IMG/VR virus record: IMGVR_UViG_3300020472_001939
Location: 1-20,024 of that record
DNA length: 20,024 bases
From: a virus
Direction: 5' to 3' (one strand)
Position numbers and translations under genes: made by a program. Below are positions 3,530 through 20,024 of the stretch, in pieces. The notes beneath the pieces are model-generated. The model was not told the DNA's origin. It saw nothing but the letters and a program-made list of their open reading frames with translations, and did not search any database. Numbering within the stretch: position 1 is the first letter of the stretch; each line of letters opens with the position of its first letter.

Positions 3530-3964
3530 ATGACCCAGAGAATAATTGGTTGCGGAGCACTTTTCTATACTTTAGACACCCAACGTTTTTTATTATTACA
3601 TAGAACACAAAGCAAACAAAACCATGTTTGGGGTTTAGTTGGTGGTACAACTACTACTGATTCTAATGCGTGGGTAGGTTTAAAAAGAGAAATTAAAGAA
3701 GAGATAGGTGACCAAAAAATTATTAAAACTATTCCAATGGAAACTTTTATCAGTAATGATGAAAATTTCTTATATCATACATATCTCTGTTTAGTCAAAA
3801 ATGAATTTATTCCTAAATTAAACAAAGAACACGACGGATATTCGTGGGTGACTTTTGGTAGATGGCCAAAGCCTTTGCATCAAGGATTAAGAAAAACATT
3901 ACAAAATAAAACTAATCAAACAAAATTAGAAACAGTTTTTAAAATGGTTAAATTTATAACATGA
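3530..3964 (+). CDS. Nudix hydrolase with a near-complete Nudix box
   Basis: A 144-residue single-domain protein, the usual size for a Nudix enzyme. The Nudix box is at residues 39-61: G39, then R53-E54-I-K-E57-E58-I-G60. These match the metal-binding REUxEExGU core. The Glu normally expected six residues after the first Gly (Gx5E) is Ser45 here, but that Glu is less critical than the REUxEE core. The fold context (GCGALFYT, then RFLLLHRTQ, then VWGLVGGTT) is typical of MutT/GDP-mannose mannosyl hydrolase-like members. Nudix enzymes cleave nucleoside diphosphate linkages, so candidates are nucleotide sugars, oxidised dNTPs or alarmones. The 13-base gap after gp15 holds no clear promoter and only a poor ribosome site. 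Its ATGA overlap with the HldE gene suggests a role alongside nucleotide-sugar synthesis; that is inference. Confidence 0.85.
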   Translation: MTQRIIGCGALFYTLDTQRFLLLHRTQSKQNHVWGLVGGTTTTDSNAWVGLKREIKEEIGDQKIIKTIPMETFISNDENFLYHTYLCLVKNEFIPKLNKEHDGYSWVTFGRWPKPLHQGLRKTLQNKTNQTKLETVFKMVKFIT

Positions 3965-5202
3965 TTAAAATAATTGGTGATATTATGCTAGATGTATGGG
4001 TAGAAGGTCAAGCTAATAGAGTTTCACCTGAAGGACCTGTATTAGTTTTAAAAGAACAAAATAAAAGATATAGTATAGGTGGTGCTGGAAATGTTGCAGT
4101 TAATATTGCAAATTTAAAAATATTTTGTGAATTATATGGTGCAGTAGGACAAGATGACTCAGGTAAAAAATTAATAAAATTATTTTTGACACAAGAAATA
4201 CATCCTAAATTAAATTATGATCATTCTGTTACAACTACTAAAACTAGAATAATAGGTCAAGGTGGTAAACACGTATTAAGATTAGATAAAGAAGAAAATT
4301 ATTCTAATGAAATTACCGTTGACTGTAATGAAAATGATATAGTAATTGTTAGTGATTATAATAAAGGCGTTATTAAAAAAGATACAATATCTAAATTATT
4401 AGAAAAAACAAAATATGTAATAGTTGATCCAAAACAAAGTGCAGATACCTATGATGGAGCTTATATTGTTAAACCAAATATGAAAGAATACAAAGAATGG
4501 AATGGTGTATTTTCAATTAGTGATGCTCTTAAATTTATGCGAGATCATCAATGGACATGGTTAATAGTTACAGATGGTAGTAATGGTGCTCATGTATTAT
4601 CTACTACAGGTGAATATCAATTATTAAAAGAAAAAGCAAAAGATGTTGCTGACGTCACAGGTGCAGGAGATACATTTTTAAGTGTATTAGCTTATGGTAT
4701 ATCCAAAGATATTAATGTATTTGAATGTTGTAAATTAGCGTGTATGGCATCAGCTAGAAATGTAGAACAACGTGGTGTTGTTCCTGTTACTTTAAATGAT
4801 TTACAAAAAGGAGTTATTTTTACTAATGGAGTATTTGATATTTTACATATAGGTCATTTAGAATTATTAAAATATGCAAAAAGTTTAGGTAAAAAATTAA
4901 TTGTTGGAATTAATAGTGATGCTAGTGTTAAAAAAATAAAAGGTCCTGATAGACCTATTAATGATGTTGATAAAAGAGTTAAACAATTAATGATGTTACC
5001 GTGGGTAGATGAAGTTAAAGTTTTTGAAGAAGATAATCCACACAATCTTATGAAAGAAATTATGCCAGATATTATAGTAAAAGGCGGTGATTGGACTGTA
5101 GAAACAGTAATAGGAAATGAACTTGCAGACGTCAAAATTTTTTCAAGAATAGAAGGACATTCTACAAGTGATATAATAGAGAAAATTAAAAATGAAAGAT
5201 AA
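3961..5202 (+). CDS. hldE: bifunctional heptose-7-phosphate kinase / heptose-1-phosphate adenylyltransferase (HldE/RfaE-like)
   Basis: A 413-residue two-domain protein matching E. coli HldE (477 aa) along its length. The PfkB/ribokinase-fold kinase covers about residues 1-275: IIGDIMLDVWVEG, SIGGAGNVAVNIANL, VSDYNKGV, VDPKQSADTYDG, and the anion-hole/catalytic motif G234-A-G-D237. The nucleotidyltransferase domain covers about 285-413: FTNGVFDILHIGH with the HxGH signature at H296-H299, GINSDASVKKIKG, IVKGGDW and GHSTSDIIEKI. In bacteria the kinase makes heptose-1,7-bisphosphate and the second domain makes ADP-D-glycero-D-manno-heptose after dephosphorylation. All key motifs are intact. The shorter length comes mainly from loss of the linker helix region between domains and of the N-terminal extension. 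It overlaps the Nudix stop by 4 bases and the oxygenase start by 11, indicating one operon. Confidence 0.92.
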   Translation: MIKIIGDIMLDVWVEGQANRVSPEGPVLVLKEQNKRYSIGGAGNVAVNIANLKIFCELYGAVGQDDSGKKLIKLFLTQEIHPKLNYDHSVTTTKTRIIGQGGKHVLRLDKEENYSNEITVDCNENDIVIVSDYNKGVIKKDTISKLLEKTKYVIVDPKQSADTYDGAYIVKPNMKEYKEWNGVFSISDALKFMRDHQWTWLIVTDGSNGAHVLSTTGEYQLLKEKAKDVADVTGAGDTFLSVLAYGISKDINVFECCKLACMASARNVEQRGVVPVTLNDLQKGVIFTNGVFDILHIGHLELLKYAKSLGKKLIVGINSDASVKKIKGPDRPINDVDKRVKQLMMLPWVDEVKVFEEDNPHNLMKEIMPDIIVKGGDWTVETVIGNELADVKIFSRIEGHSTSDIIEKIKNER

Positions 5203-5791
5203 AATTATAACTGTTAATGATGTATTAAGTACTGAAGATTTTGAAAAATTAAGAAATAGAATAATGGATAAAAGTTTTCCTTGGTACTATTATGATTATG
5301 TTGTAGGAGATGCTATGGCAAAACCGGGTACATCAGAATATCAACAACAATTTGTGCATCAATTTCAAGAACATAGTAGAATTGTTACTCCAGAACAAAA
5401 TTGGGAAATTTTAATGCCAATTTTTGCAGTTTTAAATCCAATAAACTTTGTTAGAATTAAAGCTAATCTTATTCCAAAAACAGATAAAGTAGTTGTTCAC
5501 GGATACCATGTAGATACTATTCATCCTTGCTCACTTACAGCAATATTTTATGTTAATACTAATAATGGATATACTGAATTTAAAAATGGTGTACAAACAC
5601 CTAGTGTTGCAAATTCAATGGTTATTTTTCCTAGCTATCTAAATCATTCAGGCTCTACTTGTACAGATGAAAAAGTTAGAATAGCAATTAATATTAATTT
5701 TGTACCAATTCCAGATAGCAAATATTCTTATTTGGTTATACCAGAAGAAATATGTAAATTAACTAGAGATTGGCAAACAGACGGATACTAA
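5192..5791 (+). CDS. 2-oxoglutarate/Fe(II)-dependent oxygenase
   Basis: A 199-residue protein with the double-stranded beta-helix oxygenase signature: H106-V-D108 (in HGYHVDTIHP) and distal H152 (in YLNHSG), which together make the Fe(II) facial triad, and R163 eleven residues after H152 as the expected 2-oxoglutarate carboxylate ligand. The segment between (LTAIFYVNTNNGYTEFKNG, then SMVIFPSYL) is the usual strand pattern of small phage 2OG oxygenases. These enzymes hydroxylate or demethylate proteins, nucleic acids, lipids or sugars; the substrate is not readable from sequence. It lies between hldE and hldD, overlapping both (11 bases with hldE, TAATG with hldD), so a role in modifying the heptose product or its acceptor is a reasonable inference. 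Such oxygenases are common in marine T4-like phages. Confidence 0.83.
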   Translation: MKDKIITVNDVLSTEDFEKLRNRIMDKSFPWYYYDYVVGDAMAKPGTSEYQQQFVHQFQEHSRIVTPEQNWEILMPIFAVLNPINFVRIKANLIPKTDKVVVHGYHVDTIHPCSLTAIFYVNTNNGYTEFKNGVQTPSVANSMVIFPSYLNHSGSTCTDEKVRIAININFVPIPDSKYSYLVIPEEICKLTRDWQTDGY

Positions 5792-6612
5792 TGAATATTT
5801 TAATAACAGGATATAAAGGATTTATAGGACGTAATTTGTTTGCATATTTACAAACTAAAGGACATACTGTAGAAGGTTATGATTATATAGAAAATTCTTT
5901 TCCGGATCCATCAAAATATGATTGGATAATTCATTTAGGAGCAATTTCTAAAACTACTGAAACAAATGTAAACAAAATAATGAAACAAAATTATGACTTT
6001 AGTATGAGGTTGTTACAATTATGTGATACTATGGGAACAAATTTTCAATACGCCAGCTCTGCTAGTGTATATGGAACTACAGGAAATTTTAATGAAGAAG
6101 GTCCTGTTTATCCTATGAATGCTTATGCATGGAGCAAATATTTCTTTGATCGTTTTGTAGAATCTGTAGATAAAGATGGATTTCAAATTCTTGTTCAAGG
6201 ATTTAGATATTTTAATGTGTATGGTCCTCATGAAGAAGATAAAAAAGATCAGGCGTCACCTATAACTAAATTTACAAAACAAGCTAAAGAAAATAAAGTA
6301 ATTAAAATTTTTGAAAATAGTGAAAATTATATGAGAGATTTTGTTTGTGTAAGTGATATATGTAAAGTACATGAACAAATGTTAACAACAGATACAAGTG
6401 GTATTTTTAATGTAGGTACTGGTAAGTCTACTAGTTTTTTAAGAATAGCTAAAATTATTGCTGAAAAATACAATGCCAAATTAGAAACAATACCTATGCC
6501 AGCAAATTTAAGCAAACAATATCAAACTTATACTTGCGCCGATTTAACAAAATTAAATAAACATATAGACATTAATTGGAAAACAGTTAAGGAATTTATC
6601 GATGATCAATAA
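5791..6612 (+). CDS. hldD: ADP-L-glycero-D-manno-heptose 6-epimerase (HldD/RfaD-like)
   Basis: A 273-residue short-chain dehydrogenase/reductase with the NAD(P)-binding G7xxG10xxG13 (ILITGYKGFIG) and catalytic Y112-x-x-x-K116 (YAWSK). It is closer to HldD than to a generic sugar epimerase. The segments IIHLGAISKTTE, YASSASVYG, GFRYFNVYGP, SENYMRDFVCVSD and GIFNVGTGKS align directly with E. coli HldD, and K151 falls at the position of HldD's second catalytic base (Lys178) in the loop after GFRYFNVYGP. HldD inverts C6 of ADP-D,D-heptose to give ADP-L,D-heptose. It is about 35 residues shorter than E. coli HldD. I chose the ATG at 5791, which overlaps the upstream stop as TAATG and puts the Rossmann strand at residue 3; a TTG at 5770 in the same frame would add seven residues and is less likely. 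Confidence 0.9.
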   Translation: MNILITGYKGFIGRNLFAYLQTKGHTVEGYDYIENSFPDPSKYDWIIHLGAISKTTETNVNKIMKQNYDFSMRLLQLCDTMGTNFQYASSASVYGTTGNFNEEGPVYPMNAYAWSKYFFDRFVESVDKDGFQILVQGFRYFNVYGPHEEDKKDQASPITKFTKQAKENKVIKIFENSENYMRDFVCVSDICKVHEQMLTTDTSGIFNVGTGKSTSFLRIAKIIAEKYNAKLETIPMPANLSKQYQTYTCADLTKLNKHIDINWKTVKEFIDDQ

Positions 6613-6991
6613 ACTAGGTAAAAGAGAAATGGGTTGGGGCTATGAATTAATATGGGCATCCAGCGACAAATACTGTGGAAAAATTATGGTCTTTACTAAA
6701 AAAGGTGCAAAATTTAGTATGCATTTTCATAAAGACAAAGATGAAACTTGGTTTTGTAATAGTGGAGTATTCAAATTACATTGGATTGATACTAAAGATG
6801 CAACCTTATATACTAAAGAATTTAAAGAAGGTGAAACTTGGTACAATCCACCATTAATGCCTCATCAATTAGAATTAGTATCTGATCATGGTAGCGTATC
6901 CGAAGTTAGTACACCTGATCATTCTGAAGATAATTATAGAGTTATAAAAGGCGATAGCCAATTAAAAAAAGACAATCCTGAAAAGAAATAA
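6602..6991 (+). CDS. cupin-domain metalloprotein, sugar-pathway associated
   Basis: A 129-residue single cupin. Motif 1 fits G(x5)HxH(x4)E(x6)G exactly, with metal ligands H41, H43 and E48 (SMHFHKDKDETWF). Motif 2 is G(x5)PxLxxH with H88 (GETWYNPPLMPH), where the usual Gly after P is Leu. All four metal ligands are therefore present. Small cupins of this kind include sugar-phosphate isomerases, nucleotide-sugar epimerases/isomerases and dioxygenases; the specific reaction cannot be assigned. It overlaps hldD by 11 bases and has a good AAGGA ribosome site 10 bases before its ATG, so it is the last gene of the heptose operon. A role as an isomerase feeding or modifying the heptose pathway is possible but is only inference. 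The stop codon abuts the stop of the oppositely oriented giant gene with no spacer. Confidence 0.82.
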   Translation: MINKLGKREMGWGYELIWASSDKYCGKIMVFTKKGAKFSMHFHKDKDETWFCNSGVFKLHWIDTKDATLYTKEFKEGETWYNPPLMPHQLELVSDHGSVSEVSTPDHSEDNYRVIKGDSQLKKDNPEKK

Positions 6992-9900: not shown

Positions 9901-12900
9901 AAACTGTTGCTTCTGTATATGTAGTTGATGAATCATTTGTATATGATCTAGTTATATAGAATACTGCTCCAATACCAGCCTGTGGTCTATTACTTCCACT
10001 TATTAATGTTCCTACAGCACCAGTACCTGTGTTAGCACTTCCAGTAGCAGTTACGCCTGTTATTCCGCCTGTTGATACTGCATCTATTGATGTAATTTCT
10101 AATGATAAATCATTTCCTGGTGAAGCACCATATAATGTTGATCCAGAAATTTTAACTATTTGTCCTACCCAGAAATTTGTACCTGCCTGTGCAATTGCAT
10201 CTACAGTATAATTTCCACCTGAAATACTAATATCAAATGCTTCACCTTGACCTATTCTTTTTGATGTAGGTGAATTTGTATATGTTTGAGTATTAGCCGC
10301 GGTTCCTGTTACTGCACTAATGGCTGTAATACCACCGCTACCGTCAACAGTTGAAATAGTAAATGAAGCGTCATTGGCGGCTGTTGCCCCACCTAAGTGT
10401 GTTCCTAAAATTGTTATTTGTTCTGTTCCTACAAATCCTGATCCTGCCGCTACTACTGTGGCTGTATAAGCTGTTCCTACTCTTTGAATTGTAAATGTTG
10501 CACCTGTACCTGATTGGTTTGTAGTCCATCCTGGTATCGTTGAACCATCCCATTCTGGTATTTCGGTATATGTTACGTCTCCATCAGTTCCTGTTCCACT
10601 AACAGCTAATCCTGTAATAGACCCGTCTGCGTCTACGCTAGACACTCTAACGTATGCATCATTGGTCGTATTAACTCCGCCCAAAGCCGAACCAGAAACT
10701 TCTAACATATCATTTACTACATAAGCTAATGATTCAGGTCCTGGTACAGCATTACCACTAGTTGTCCAGTTGCCTTGTGCAACTGAATCATTGGCTCCTA
10801 ATGCTGTATCCAATGTAATTGTTAAATCATGTGTAGGTGATAAACCACCTAATGTTGTTCCTGATATTTTTAATTCTTGACCTAATGTATAATGTTCTCC
10901 AACTGTCGTTACTGTAATATTACTGTAGCTACCTCCACCTGGATTAGTAACACTAAATTGAACTCCTGAACCTACATAGTTGTTAGCTGATGTTAATCCA
11001 GTCCAAGATTGTGTGTTTACGGCTGTACCTGTCTCTGTAACACTTGTTATTCCACCTGAACCGTCTACAGTTGCGATTGTTAATGTACAATCATTTGTTG
11101 TTGATGCACCACCTAAATTACCACCATCAATTGTTATAGTATCATTTTGTGCGTAATTTGTTCCTAATCCTGTTATAACTGCTGAATAAGTTGTACCTGT
11201 TCTTGTTACGTTAAATTGTGCTAATGTTCCTGAACCACTTGTAGTAAATGCTGGGTTTGAGTATGTTACTACTGCATCAGGAGCCGTACCTGCAGATGAA
11301 TGACCTGTTATTACTCCTGAACTTTCACCAGTAACTCTAATTAATAATTCATTAGTATCTCCAACTCCACCAAATTCTGTTCCTGCAAATCTTAATGAAT
11401 CATTAACAATGAAACCAGTTCCACCATTTGACATTGTAACGGCACTAAAAGTATTATTCAATATTGTTATGTCCCAAATAGATCCAGCACCATTACCGCC
11501 TGCGTATGCAGGAGTTATAGCTGTATATGTTTTACTTGCCAATGCTACTGAATATGTTCCAGCTGTTTTAGTAATATTAAATGTGCCGCCTGTTCCTACG
11601 CCACCTGGTACACTACCAGTTACGTTTGATACTGATCCTGTTCCGTCAAATGCAGTTCCTGAATAACTGAAAGAAAGAATTTCTCCTGCAGTATCTACAC
11701 TATCTATATTAATTGTTAAATCGTTTGCTGGTGTTGATGCACTTAAAGCCGTTCCAAGAATTGTTATTGCATCACCTACTTGATAATTTAGTCCAGTTAC
11801 AGATATTGCAACAGTATAAGTTCCACCAGTCCAACTTACATTCCAAGTTGCACCTGAACCATTTGGTGATCTGTTTAATCCAGCAACATTTTGATAAACT
11901 GTTTGATCACCTATTAAACTTGATTGTAAGGGACTTGATAAAGTTAAAACCATTCCATTAACGTTTATAATATTTGTACCAAACCCATCACCTCTATCCA
12001 TTACAGAATTTTGTAAAATACCAGCCGCATCTACGACTTCAACTTGAGTTACACCTGAAGCATAATCTCCTTTAATTTTTGGACTAACTATTGCTCCACC
12101 TGAACCTGTAATTGCTGTAATTTGTGTACCAGTTGCAATACCTGTTCCTGCCACTGGTGCTCCTGTTGGAGGAGCTGTTCCAGTAAATGGAACAATTGTT
12201 TGTCCTGATAATACTTTTAATGAAGTTGCAACTGATCCACTTGATCCTTGAGTTACAACAGAGAAAGTCGGTTCTCCTAAATCTGCTCCAGTATAAAATG
12301 CACCTTTACGCATTTGAGTAAATTTAGTTGATATGACCTGTGCGTTTGATGTTCCTACTTTTGCTTTTGCATAGTAATTAAAAATTTTATTAGATGTTAT
12401 AGCATTTACAACAAATGAACCTTGTGCTCTACCTGCCCCTTCTACTCCTGATCCTGCAAAACCTATAATAGTTAATGGATCTCCTGCTAACATGGAGTGA
12501 GGACCAACTGTTGTTACAGTTATTAATGATGCACCTATTCCTGCTGTACCAGTTGATGCGTCAGTTGTTACTGATGCAATATCTATATCTGTTCCCGGTA
12601 CTTCGTAAATTGATGGATAACCTCTTTGTGTTGCAATCGCTTGCCACTTGGTTGGCTGTAGTCCATACTCAAAGTCAGCATCTATCATTGATTGTGGTTT
12701 TGCAATTCTAAATCTTTCAATTGCGTCAGTACCAAAATCAAATGGTCTTGTTTTAAGTTCTCCGCCTTCTACAAAAATAGATACTGCATCATCTAATGCG
12801 TGTGTACTAGTATCAGCATTTAAAAATATTGTAGTTACAGTATCACTACCTTGTAAGAATGCTTTAAAATCATCATCTACTTCTTTTTCATATTCTACTG

Positions 12901-14712: not shown

Positions 14713-14808
14713 TTATTCCTTTGTACACTCACACTGATTGTCTTCCGTGCATAAACATGGATTGCAAGTACAATTTTCACATTTACATTTTTCGTTTTCG
14801 CAAGCCAT
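14713..14808 (-). CDS. 31-residue cysteine-rich, metallothionein-like peptide
   Basis: ATG at 14808 to TAA at 14713. The product has nine Cys in 31 residues (positions 3, 8, 10, 13, 15, 18, 20, 26, 28), four CxC pairs (8-10, 13-15, 18-20, 26-28), six Glu, three Lys and no His or aromatic residue. That composition is the classic profile of a metallothionein, which binds Zn, Cd or Cu(I) in thiolate clusters; nine thiolates could hold a cluster of three or four ions. The gene looks translated: a strong AGGAG lies 8 bases before the ATG, its start is 3 bases after the 618-aa fibre stop, and its own 3' end carries the AAGGA ribosome site of the giant gene, whose ATG is 5 bases after the TAA. I cannot align it to a named family by eye. 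Alternatives are a disulfide-bonded minor virion peptide or a redox/zinc peptide. Confidence 0.75.
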   Translation of the reverse strand: MACENEKCKCENCTCNPCLCTEDNQCECTKE

Positions 14809-17198: not shown

Positions 17199-18146
17199 TT
17201 AACGGGTATTTTTACCGTGTTTTATCATTCTATTGACAGATGCAATAACTTGTTGCTCTTGTTGGTCATTCATCTCCATAATACCCTCGTTTATACGGTC
17301 TGAAAATTCATCTACAGTAATTCTTATAGGGCTATAAACACGGTCTTCTTTGCCCAAATCAATGACATCAAATTTTTCATAATCTGGAAATGATGTATTA
17401 ATAGGAAATGTAGATCCTATAATAGATGTTGTAGTTGTGTCAAAAGTATAAGCCATATGTGCACCTACACTGTCACATCCTACAAAGTGATCACATTGTC
17501 TAATTACAGCCATCCATATTCTAATATGTACGTTTTGTGGTGTAGCTACAGGTGATGACATATGCTTATTAAATTCTAATGGTGTTTCTGTCATAATCAT
17601 TACAGCATATTTTTTAGATAACTTTCTTACTATATTATAAAGATTTTTAGTTTCCATACTTCTGCCGGTAATGTCAACTACATCTTTATCTTCTTTTCTA
17701 ACACCTCTTCCAAAGGGTTGAATAACAATTATTTTATCTTTTTTGCATTTTTCTTTTACTTCAGTTAACATTTTTCGAGCATATAATAGTTCATCTTTGC
17801 TTAATCTTATTGTAGGTTTTTGTAATTCTCTTATACCTTTATTATTAATTGCAATATCATATGCTTGGGCAAGACTACATTTTTGAGTATAGTATTCCCA
17901 TACTCTATAAGGTTCAGGATTAATACAATTTCTATCTTTTATTAATTCTTTAAAAAGTCCTTTATGCCAATTGTCATATGTTTTATAATATAATGTTGGA
18001 TGACCTTTTAAAACATCAGTTCCACCTTCACAAATTATTACAAAATCATCATTAGGATTTTCTTTTTCAAAATTTTCTAATGCAGGTATGGAACTAATCA
18101 TTCTTCCAGCACCGCCATTTAAAAAGATAGCACTATTTCTTAACAT
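17199..18146 (-). CDS. GT9-fold (heptosyltransferase-like) glycosyltransferase
   Basis: A 315-residue protein with the GT-B plan of family 9 (ADP-heptose:LPS heptosyltransferases, WaaC/WaaF type). The N-terminal Gly-rich loop is FLNGGAGRMISSIPALENF (residues 8-26). The C-domain strand IIVIQPFGRG is near 139-148. The nucleotide-sugar site C224-D225-S226-V-G-A-H230 is followed by TTTTSIIGSTFPIN. D225 and H230 fit the D-S/T-G-x-x-H motif of the family. The N-terminal motif, GxGD in WaaC with a catalytic Asp, reads GAGR here (Arg15), so either the activity is altered or another residue acts as base. Its start lies within the 3' end of the carbamoyltransferase gene (14-base overlap), with AAAGG just upstream of the ATG. 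With HldE and HldD in the same window, heptose is the natural donor candidate. Confidence 0.75.
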   Translation of the reverse strand: MLRNSAIFLNGGAGRMISSIPALENFEKENPNDDFVIICEGGTDVLKGHPTLYYKTYDNWHKGLFKELIKDRNCINPEPYRVWEYYTQKCSLAQAYDIAINNKGIRELQKPTIRLSKDELLYARKMLTEVKEKCKKDKIIVIQPFGRGVRKEDKDVVDITGRSMETKNLYNIVRKLSKKYAVMIMTETPLEFNKHMSSPVATPQNVHIRIWMAVIRQCDHFVGCDSVGAHMAYTFDTTTTSIIGSTFPINTSFPDYEKFDVIDLGKEDRVYSPIRITVDEFSDRINEGIMEMNDQQEQQVIASVNRMIKHGKNTR

Positions 18147-19944
18147 TTTTTACCTTTATCATTTTTCCATATTCTGGAAGATACAAATATTCTAAAAGAG
18201 ATTGTTCAAGAGTCCATATAGCGTCTTCTAATGTTTCTACAAGTGGTTCTCCAGCTAAATTAAATGACGTATTAAACACAATTGGTATTTTTGTTTGATT
18301 ATAAAACTCTTTAATTAATTTATAATACAATGGATTTTGTTCTTCTTTAACTGTTTGTATTCTACAAGTACCATCTACGTGTATAATACTAGGAATTTTT
18401 TCTGCTATTCCTTCTTGACAATTTACAGCATACATCATATAAGGACTTTCTTCCATTCCTCTTAAATCAAACCATTCGTGTACGTGTTCATGTAATATAG
18501 ATCCTGCAAATGGTCTAAAATATTCTCTTCGTTTAACTATATTAACAAAATCTTTACCATCTTTAAATGAAGGATCAAATAAAATACTTCTGTTACCTAA
18601 TGCTCTTGGACCACTTTCTGATTTTCCTTGAAACATTGAAACAATATTTTTTTCTATCATTAATTTAACTACATCTTTATCGTTTGCGTCCATCAATTCA
18701 ACACCAGGTTTATTTGCTAATTTTTCTATTTCTTCTAATGTATATTTTCTTTCTGGACCTTGACATAATGTAGTAAGTGGTCTTTTTGTCATATCTTCTG
18801 ACATACCATAATAAAATAAAAGAGCCGCTCCAATGGCTGTTCCGGCGTCATTTGATACTGGTTCAACAAATAAATTAATTCCATCTTTTCTTAAAGACTC
18901 AAGATACCAATAATTTGCTACACAATTTAATCCATATCCACCAGATAATACAACATTTTTTTGACCTGTCATTTCTACAGCTTTATAAATTAATTTTAAA
19001 ACTTCTGCTTGAGTTTCTGTTTGACAAGCATAGGCTAAATCTCTTCTATTAGGTAGTTTAGTAACATCAGGATTGTCTGTAGGTGTTTCATCTAAATAAT
19101 CATAAATGCCTTCATTTACTATTGCCGCATTAGGATATGTAGGAATTATTAAATGTCTATTAGATAAAGACATATATTTTATTTCATTATGAAATAATGG
19201 AGGAATTCTATCATTAGGTTTTCCATAAGGAAATAATCCCATTGTTTTTCCTGCTTCAATGGCTGAGAATCCACAGTATTGAGTAACTGCTTCATAAACT
19301 TTAACAATTCCTGCTACATCTGAAAATAAACATTCATGAGTTTTACCAGGTTCTCCCATTTTAGATGAATCCATTTTTGTCATATGTGCTCCAGGAGACG
19401 CAGAACCAGTACCGTAGTGTTTCCATACAGTTGTTATATTATTAGGATATGAACAATCAAAAATAGATTCTATTTCAAACATCCATAAATCTCCTGTAAG
19501 TTGATTATTAACAGGCATAAAAGTTCCTGCTCCATCAACAATAACCGAACAGGCTTTATCAAATCCTGATCTATAAAAAGCACAACCGGCGTGTAACTTA
19601 TGATGAATATGACTTAGGTCAATTACTTGTGGGTGTTGTTTTAAATTTGCTTTTCTATCTATTAAACCTAATTTTCTTGCTATTCCTGTATATACATCAT
19701 CATGAGTATAATCTACTTTACCAGTAGTAGGATCATCTAATGGTTGTGTATGAGCTACAATTAAATAATCTATTTTGTCAGTATATTTTAATACTTCCAT
19801 CATTGAACGATAAGGACCACCATCGTATTTGTGTCTAGATAATCTTTCTTCTTCTATTGCAAAAACAATTTCTCCATCTTTTAATAAACATATTCCTGCA
19901 TTATGTCCTCTGGCTATTGCCGCAATATAACCTGATTTATTCAT
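18133..19944 (-). CDS. O-carbamoyltransferase (NodU/CmcH/TobZ family)
   Basis: A 603-residue protein of typical family length. The N-terminal Kae1-like domain (about 1-380) has GHNAGICLLKDGEIV (H14), EEERLSRHK, the metal motif H114-H115-K-L-H118-A, and VIVDGAG with D137. A later Kae1 motif is GGYGLNCVANYWYL, then PVSNDAGTAIGAAL. The C-terminal YrdC-like domain follows with SESGPRALGNRSI, REYFRPFAGSI and FNTSFNLAGEPLV. These enzymes use carbamoyl phosphate and ATP to make carbamoyl-adenylate and carbamoylate a hydroxyl of a sugar or antibiotic. All recognisable catalytic motifs are intact. I chose the ATG at 19944 because AGGA lies 8 bases before it; an in-frame ATG at 19959 would include that site in the coding sequence. 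It overlaps the upstream gene by 8 bases and the GT9-like gene by 14, so it is part of one operon. Confidence 0.9.
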   Translation of the reverse strand: MNKSGYIAAIARGHNAGICLLKDGEIVFAIEEERLSRHKYDGGPYRSMMEVLKYTDKIDYLIVAHTQPLDDPTTGKVDYTHDDVYTGIARKLGLIDRKANLKQHPQVIDLSHIHHKLHAGCAFYRSGFDKACSVIVDGAGTFMPVNNQLTGDLWMFEIESIFDCSYPNNITTVWKHYGTGSASPGAHMTKMDSSKMGEPGKTHECLFSDVAGIVKVYEAVTQYCGFSAIEAGKTMGLFPYGKPNDRIPPLFHNEIKYMSLSNRHLIIPTYPNAAIVNEGIYDYLDETPTDNPDVTKLPNRRDLAYACQTETQAEVLKLIYKAVEMTGQKNVVLSGGYGLNCVANYWYLESLRKDGINLFVEPVSNDAGTAIGAALLFYYGMSEDMTKRPLTTLCQGPERKYTLEEIEKLANKPGVELMDANDKDVVKLMIEKNIVSMFQGKSESGPRALGNRSILFDPSFKDGKDFVNIVKRREYFRPFAGSILHEHVHEWFDLRGMEESPYMMYAVNCQEGIAEKIPSIIHVDGTCRIQTVKEEQNPLYYKLIKEFYNQTKIPIVFNTSFNLAGEPLVETLEDAIWTLEQSLLEYLYLPEYGKMIKVKNVKK

Positions 19945-20024
19945 TTTGTTCTTCCTCATCAGTTTTTTGTTTTCCTAATATTACATTTACAACATAATCT
20001 TCTACTTCTTCAGACATCCACATT
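19937..20024 (-). CDS. 3' end of an upstream gene, function unknown
   Basis: An open minus-strand frame enters from the right edge and stops at a TAA (19937-19939), overlapping the carbamoyltransferase start by 8 bases. The visible residues end ...SEEVEDYVVNVILGKQKTDE plus EEQNE, a very acidic tail. In-frame ATGs at 20023 and 20017 could start a tiny protein of 26-28 residues, but the region upstream is outside the window, so this may equally be the C-terminus of a larger protein. The overlap and the ribosome site inside it imply translational coupling with the carbamoyltransferase. Confidence 0.5.
   Translation of the reverse strand, partial: MWMSEEVEDYVVNVILGKQKTDEEEQNE

Follow-up and report, generated by a model that had tools for sequence, protein, structure and literature searches.

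The beta domain of vertebrate metallothionein contains nine cysteines and binds three divalent metals. The bacterial proteins SmtA, BmtA and PmtA (Pfam Metallothio_Pro) form a folded zinc-finger-like domain with histidine ligands. The window analyzed here is a 20,024-nucleotide stretch of viral DNA (IMG/VR record IMGVR_UViG_3300020472_001939, positions 1 to 20,024), and a micro-ORF on its minus strand has the translation MACENEKCKCENCTCNPCLCTEDNQCECTKE, which resembles both systems in part. With the vertebrate beta domain it shares a length of about 30 residues, nine Cys, CxCxxCxC runs and small acidic or polar spacers, but the Cys spacing differs, being C-x4-CxCx2CxCx2CxC-x5-CxC in the phage peptide, which is rich in Glu and Asn whereas the beta domain is rich in Lys and Ser. 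As with SmtA, BmtA and PmtA, it is a small Cys-rich peptide of the bacterial world with presumed Zn/Cd binding; unlike them, it lacks His and matches no Pfam or NCBIfam model. The Neurospora-type fungal copper metallothionein is likewise tiny, CxC-dominated and free of aromatic residues, but it has seven Cys instead of nine and another spacing. The features at the locus are as follows.

16668-14812, minus strand: upstream neighbour, 618 aa, phrog_2576 (function unknown) as its sole PHROG match
14821-14817, minus strand: AGGAG ribosome-binding site that precedes the micro-ORF ATG by 8 bases and lies within the final codons of the gene upstream
14808-14713, minus strand: metallothionein-like micro-ORF, 31 aa, ATG start, nine Cys
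14707-6992, minus strand: downstream neighbour, 2571 aa, PHROG 'virion structural protein' phrog_5838 (1.3e-245)

The nine Cys are at positions 3, 8, 10, 13, 15, 18, 20, 26 and 28, with four CxC pairs at 8/10, 13/15, 18/20 and 26/28. The end of the upstream gene is separated from the micro-ORF ATG by 3 bases, and the micro-ORF stop from the downstream gene start by 5 bases. The reading frame described in the first-pass annotation is thus confirmed in its length, Cys content, ribosome site and spacers. The peptide has no His, Phe, Trp or Tyr, as was also stated there; this is true of the window peptide and does not extend to the family, where only 37 of the 65 peptides of the core set described below are free of these residues. 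The label of tail-fibre genes for the two neighbours fits loosely. Over its first 200 residues the 2571-aa protein shares about 30% identity with structural proteins that include cyanophage short tail fibre proteins, and the 618-aa protein has, beyond phrog_2576, only weak, below-cut-off resemblance to esterase-type Pfam models.

The plus strand of the window carries a cassette at 3530-6991 with a NUDIX gene, a PfkB and cytidylyltransferase fusion (HldE-like), an NAD-dependent epimerase, a cupin and a possible 2OG-Fe(II) oxygenase, and a carbamoyltransferase is found at 18133-19959 on the minus strand. The content of this cassette and the carbamoyltransferase suggest surface-sugar modification. 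An earlier idea that the peptide supplies metal to the cupin and the Fe oxygenase has lost ground, as these ORFs lie on the opposite strand (5192-6991) and none of their Pfam matches rises above the cut-off.

A short Cys-rich frame may be non-functional and arise by chance. Weaker Cys-rich frames do occur antisense within the long structural gene, for example at 12122-12208 on the plus strand (TTG start, 8 Cys in 28 aa). Such frames in a repetitive neighbouring gene make Cys content insufficient as proof of a gene, and conservation is the deciding test. In a shuffle control, the window sequence was randomized 300 times with its dinucleotides preserved; no shuffled copy had an ORF of 20-75 aa in which Cys made up 25% or more and CxC occurred four or more times, and the real window has exactly one such ORF.

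Searches of IMG/VR with either flank returned the identical eight close contigs, at ≥87% identity to the query. Five of them (L001-L005) carry the micro-ORF, in three alleles including that of the window, with nine Cys in each and with the AGGAG site kept. From the other three (L006-L008, one allele) the micro-ORF is cleanly missing; the flanking genes there are 7 bases apart, GGGG stands at the place of AGGAG, and a search of the rest of their available sequence gave no copy. The micro-ORF is likewise missing from a distant relative, L009 (34%). The three alleles differ by very few changes, which give pairwise dN/dS values of 0.11, 0.05 and 0.35. The simplest reading of this locus would be that a unit of about 97 bp was gained, or lost, between the two flanking genes, and the pattern of presence and clean absence indicates that the micro-ORF is dispensable cargo here. 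The first-pass annotation had proposed that its reading would fail if phages with the same flanking genes had no Cys-conserving ORF, and the outcome is mixed: three of the eight have none, and no broken frame or lost Cys occurs among the five that carry it. Its expectation of relatives widespread at this very locus did not hold beyond these five contigs; it is at other loci that relatives are widespread.

A scan of viral contigs with the core motif CENCTCDPCxC identified 65 contigs. Three of them cover the window's own locus, and there is some redundancy, with one virus represented by more than one contig. The motif lies inside a closed ORF of 20-53 aa in all 65, giving 40 distinct peptides, and exactly nine Cys are present in 61 of the 65. 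An SD-like site precedes 62 of the 65 ORFs, with a start choice that favoured SD. Of 60 upstream neighbours, 57 share the strand of the peptide gene and 56 are no more than 120 bases away. The scaffold of the family can be written as C-x4-CxCENCxC-x2-CxC-x5-CxC. The looser motif CENCxCxxCxC was found in at least 120 stretches of viral contigs, 107 of those listed being in ORFs of up to 75 aa; together with the window, the matches listed comprise 108 ORFs and 77 distinct peptides. This looser set left out ORFs longer than 75 aa, and one of its 77 peptides, from L312, looks like a chance frame. A control scan with the core reversed, at equal degeneracy, gave 35 stretches, 24 of them without an ATG-started ORF.

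It should be mentioned that six remaining stretches of the control scan (in viral contigs L464, L468, L473, L488, L492 and L494) belong to a second family of tiny Cys-rich peptides, of the type MTKENKKRCATCECYDCDCNECSCDCHDEE. Two other patterns were of limited use. A degenerate DNA pattern for C-x-C-T-C-N/K-P-C gave 72 stretches, nearly all chance frames by eye, and was abandoned. A MAC-anchored pattern (at least 120 stretches) gave mostly chance frames among the matches listed, yet it exposed the family. Short modules with CENCxCxxCxC are also embedded in large phage proteins (523-708 aa) to which no function has been assigned (L246:4452-6578 on the minus strand, L260, L323 and L334). A family peptide is carried by L345 (PBPT01000016.1, 335,231 bases), a contig binned as Neomarinimicrobiota; its neighbouring genes are phage-like by eye, and L345 could therefore be a large phage.

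The selection analyses, from which one allele with an ambiguous base was excluded, distinguish the Cys positions from the rest of the peptide. Column -2, two residues before the core and outside the search pattern, holds Cys in every one of the 43 distinct alleles, encoded by TGC in 23 and TGT in 20, so that only synonymous differences are found. The other outside Cys columns hold Cys in 39, 39 and 38 of the 43 alleles, and in the looser set column -2 is Cys in 69 of the 77 peptides among the matches listed. For the non-Cys columns outside the core, dN/dS is about 0.46 (362 pairs, ≥75% identity) or 0.52 (82 pairs, 85%). An earlier dN/dS figure of 0.19 had used alleles pre-filtered for Cys at three positions, and the calculation was therefore repeated without that filter; at 75% identity it gives 0.21 with the Cys columns and 0.46 without them. 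Codon comparison thus shows a Cys scaffold under selection between spacers that are drifting, which matches the expectation for a metallothionein-like peptide. The weak constraint on the non-Cys columns was at the same time counted against the explanation that we favor below. With Cys codons under selection, a closed short ORF in every core contig and the result of the shuffles, the chance-frame reading was rejected, and we give it practically no credence. Judged by its sequence and conservation, the micro-ORF is a real gene of a widespread, unnamed family of uncultured phages.

Comparison with databases did not connect this family to a described one. No Pfam or NCBIfam family was matched by 32 members at E values up to 10, under HMMER filters that may drop short biased peptides. 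The same 32 members matched two PHROGs families, one member each, at the non-significant E values of 3.4 and 3.6. The sole match under E 10 in a PDB profile search is a metallothionein, 1m0j, and is also not significant (E 2.2). Profile searches of 20 named phage records, which included isolates and four viruses from single cells, gave no match to the family. A tblastn search of named phages with the 31-aa peptide gave no match with the low-complexity filter on, and so is not evidence of absence; blastn of a family locus against phages gave no match, and L177, a relative of 62 residues, had tblastn matches that were at best weak (E 0.7). The open-licence literature, in which the longest result lists were covered by their top entries, yielded no title about a metallothionein of phages. 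The family is unnamed, absent from Pfam and NCBIfam, and without a significant PHROGs match. The suggestion that relatives are widespread and unannotated has accordingly been borne out by the 65 core contigs.

Several broad properties of metallothioneins are present: small size, Cys-rich CxC/CxxC arrays, no F, W, Y or H in the window peptide, and a Cys scaffold under purifying selection, as seen in the invariant column -2 and in the locus alleles that keep all nine Cys. The view of the peptide as metallothionein-like and as the product of a conserved small gene is therefore upheld. The statement that such a composition defines metallothioneins was too strong, as there is no metallothionein profile match and metal binding is inferred. 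The family peptides are probably metal-binding.

The gene neighborhoods of the relatives are varied. The 183 neighbour proteins of the 108 ORFs, among the matches listed, fall into 70 clusters. When 20 neighbour or host proteins were compared to PHROGs, the named families were endonuclease, Hsp20, cytidyltransferase, head closure, terminase small subunit, endolysin and virion structural protein, and several of the 20 had no family or families of unknown function. The gene is an accessory gene of uncultured tailed phages, packed tightly on the same strand as its neighbours, provided with ribosome sites and found in many neighborhoods. Its structural-gene setting, as read from these contigs, is local to the window's locus and not a family trait. 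This bears on the proposal that the peptide is a metal-binding component of the virion, placed in the tail or fibre and helping to fold, cross-link or protect the particle. The 3- and 5-base spacing to two structural-region genes in the window would fit such a component, as would the related Cys modules embedded in the larger phage proteins, but relatives lie beside genes as different as those for endonuclease, Hsp20, cytidyltransferase and terminase, and three of the eight phages with the same two structural genes manage without the peptide. Because the tail-fibre setting is not conserved, the virion-binding role suggested in the first-pass annotation is weakened, and we regard it as very unlikely.

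Neighbour genes were also searched by tblastn with queries from family loci, in 174 motif-bearing and 263 other loci. Hsp20 was found in 24 versus 0 and an SNase-type nuclease in 20 versus 2, respectively. NifU is beside the peptide in 5 of the motif-bearing loci, IscA-like genes accompany it in 6 (at a distance of up to 1.5 kb in five), and a glutaredoxin gene in 3 (within 260 bp); none of the three was found in the 263 others. Since the other loci were not lineage-matched and the contigs are redundant, these counts are descriptions and not significance tests. Most relatives have neither NifU nor glutaredoxin nearby, and neither was found in the eight contigs of the window's group, which are fragments, so that the link to metal rests on the relatives. 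Where NifU, IscA-like and glutaredoxin genes do occur, they favour a role in metal, Fe-S or thiol handling over one as a part of the virion.

The closest coupling is in L173:5856-6396 (minus strand), where a nine-Cys peptide gene overlaps a NifU-domain gene (Pfam 5.7e-19) by 8 nt, an arrangement also present in L320, L530, L533 and L546. This overlap, and the IscA-like genes that lie up to 1.5 kb from the peptide in five loci, could indicate a dedicated metallochaperone for the assembly of Fe-S or other metalloproteins, working with NifU/IscA-type carriers of phage or host. However, the five NifU loci carry just two peptide alleles and hence represent at most two lineages, neither NifU nor glutaredoxin was found in the eight contigs of the window's group, and the IscA-like proteins match TIGR00049 below its NCBIfam cut-off. 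We consider a dedicated chaperone quite unlikely. The glutaredoxin genes raise another alternative, a redox or thiol device in which the peptide is a sacrificial reductant or a glutaredoxin/thioredoxin substrate that protects the infected cell late in infection. Such a device would account for the glutaredoxin neighbours, but these are in only 3 of 174 loci, and the fixed CxC/CxxC spacing, expected of metal clusters, is needless for a thiol buffer. It seems an unlikely explanation.

The peptide most likely acts as a thiolate metal binder. Our best reading is that it would be the metallothionein-like product of a mobile phage accessory gene, by which soft metals are buffered or handed on. The alternating CxC/CxxC thiols of its nine Cys could form a small thiolate cluster of a d10 metal, Zn(II) or Cu(I), and by analogy with the nine-Cys vertebrate beta domain about three divalent ions may be bound. 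The peptide would be made together with the neighbouring structural genes, and in the infected cell it would buffer metal and thiols or pass them on. It might, for example, keep soft metals from host breakdown off the assembling proteins, or alternatively supply phage or host metalloproteins with metal. We judge this full account, in which the peptide binds metal through its thiolates and buffers it or hands it over inside infected cells, to be somewhat better than an even bet.

Similar peptides, possibly related, were also found outside viral contigs. A scan of genome contigs gave at least 120 matches, and among the matches listed 48 loci, mostly in Flavobacteriaceae records, encode a chromosomal peptide of about 33 aa that ends in NCTCENCxCxxCNC (NCTCENCTCNNCNC). 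They have CENCxCxxCxC and a Cys-dominated design in common with the phage peptide, but differ by a longer N-terminal Cys part and by having no CDPC core. An ECF sigma-factor gene is located less than 400 bases downstream on the same strand in 44 of the 48 (including L354, L364, L377, L340 and L341), and two of the four exceptions (L349 and L360) are at the edge of the available locus. Among the 72 remaining genome loci listed, such a gene is found in 11. Three of the sigma proteins scored best against SigZ models, below the SigZ cut-offs. Together, peptide and sigma factor have the look of a sigma-linked unit in Flavobacteriaceae, with a metal or redox role, that is as yet undescribed.

Some phage genes are known to redirect the carbon, phosphorus and photosynthesis of the host. 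If a metallothionein is indeed common in phages, such control would extend to trace-metal handling. With 20-53 residues and no significant model match in Pfam, NCBIfam or PHROGs for 32 members, such peptides are easily overlooked in phage annotation. A broader view, which we put forward tentatively and hold to be doubtful as it stands, is that uncultured tailed phages carry a large, mobile and unannotated family of nine-Cys metal-thiolate peptides and that some lineages, with NifU, IscA-like and glutaredoxin genes, may have a viral metal and Fe-S toolkit that commandeers the soft-metal economy of the host during infection. The tight NifU coupling of some copies offers a concrete, testable system, and the sister-like peptides upstream of ECF sigma-factor genes may offer a second, chromosomal system whose function is within reach of ordinary genetics.
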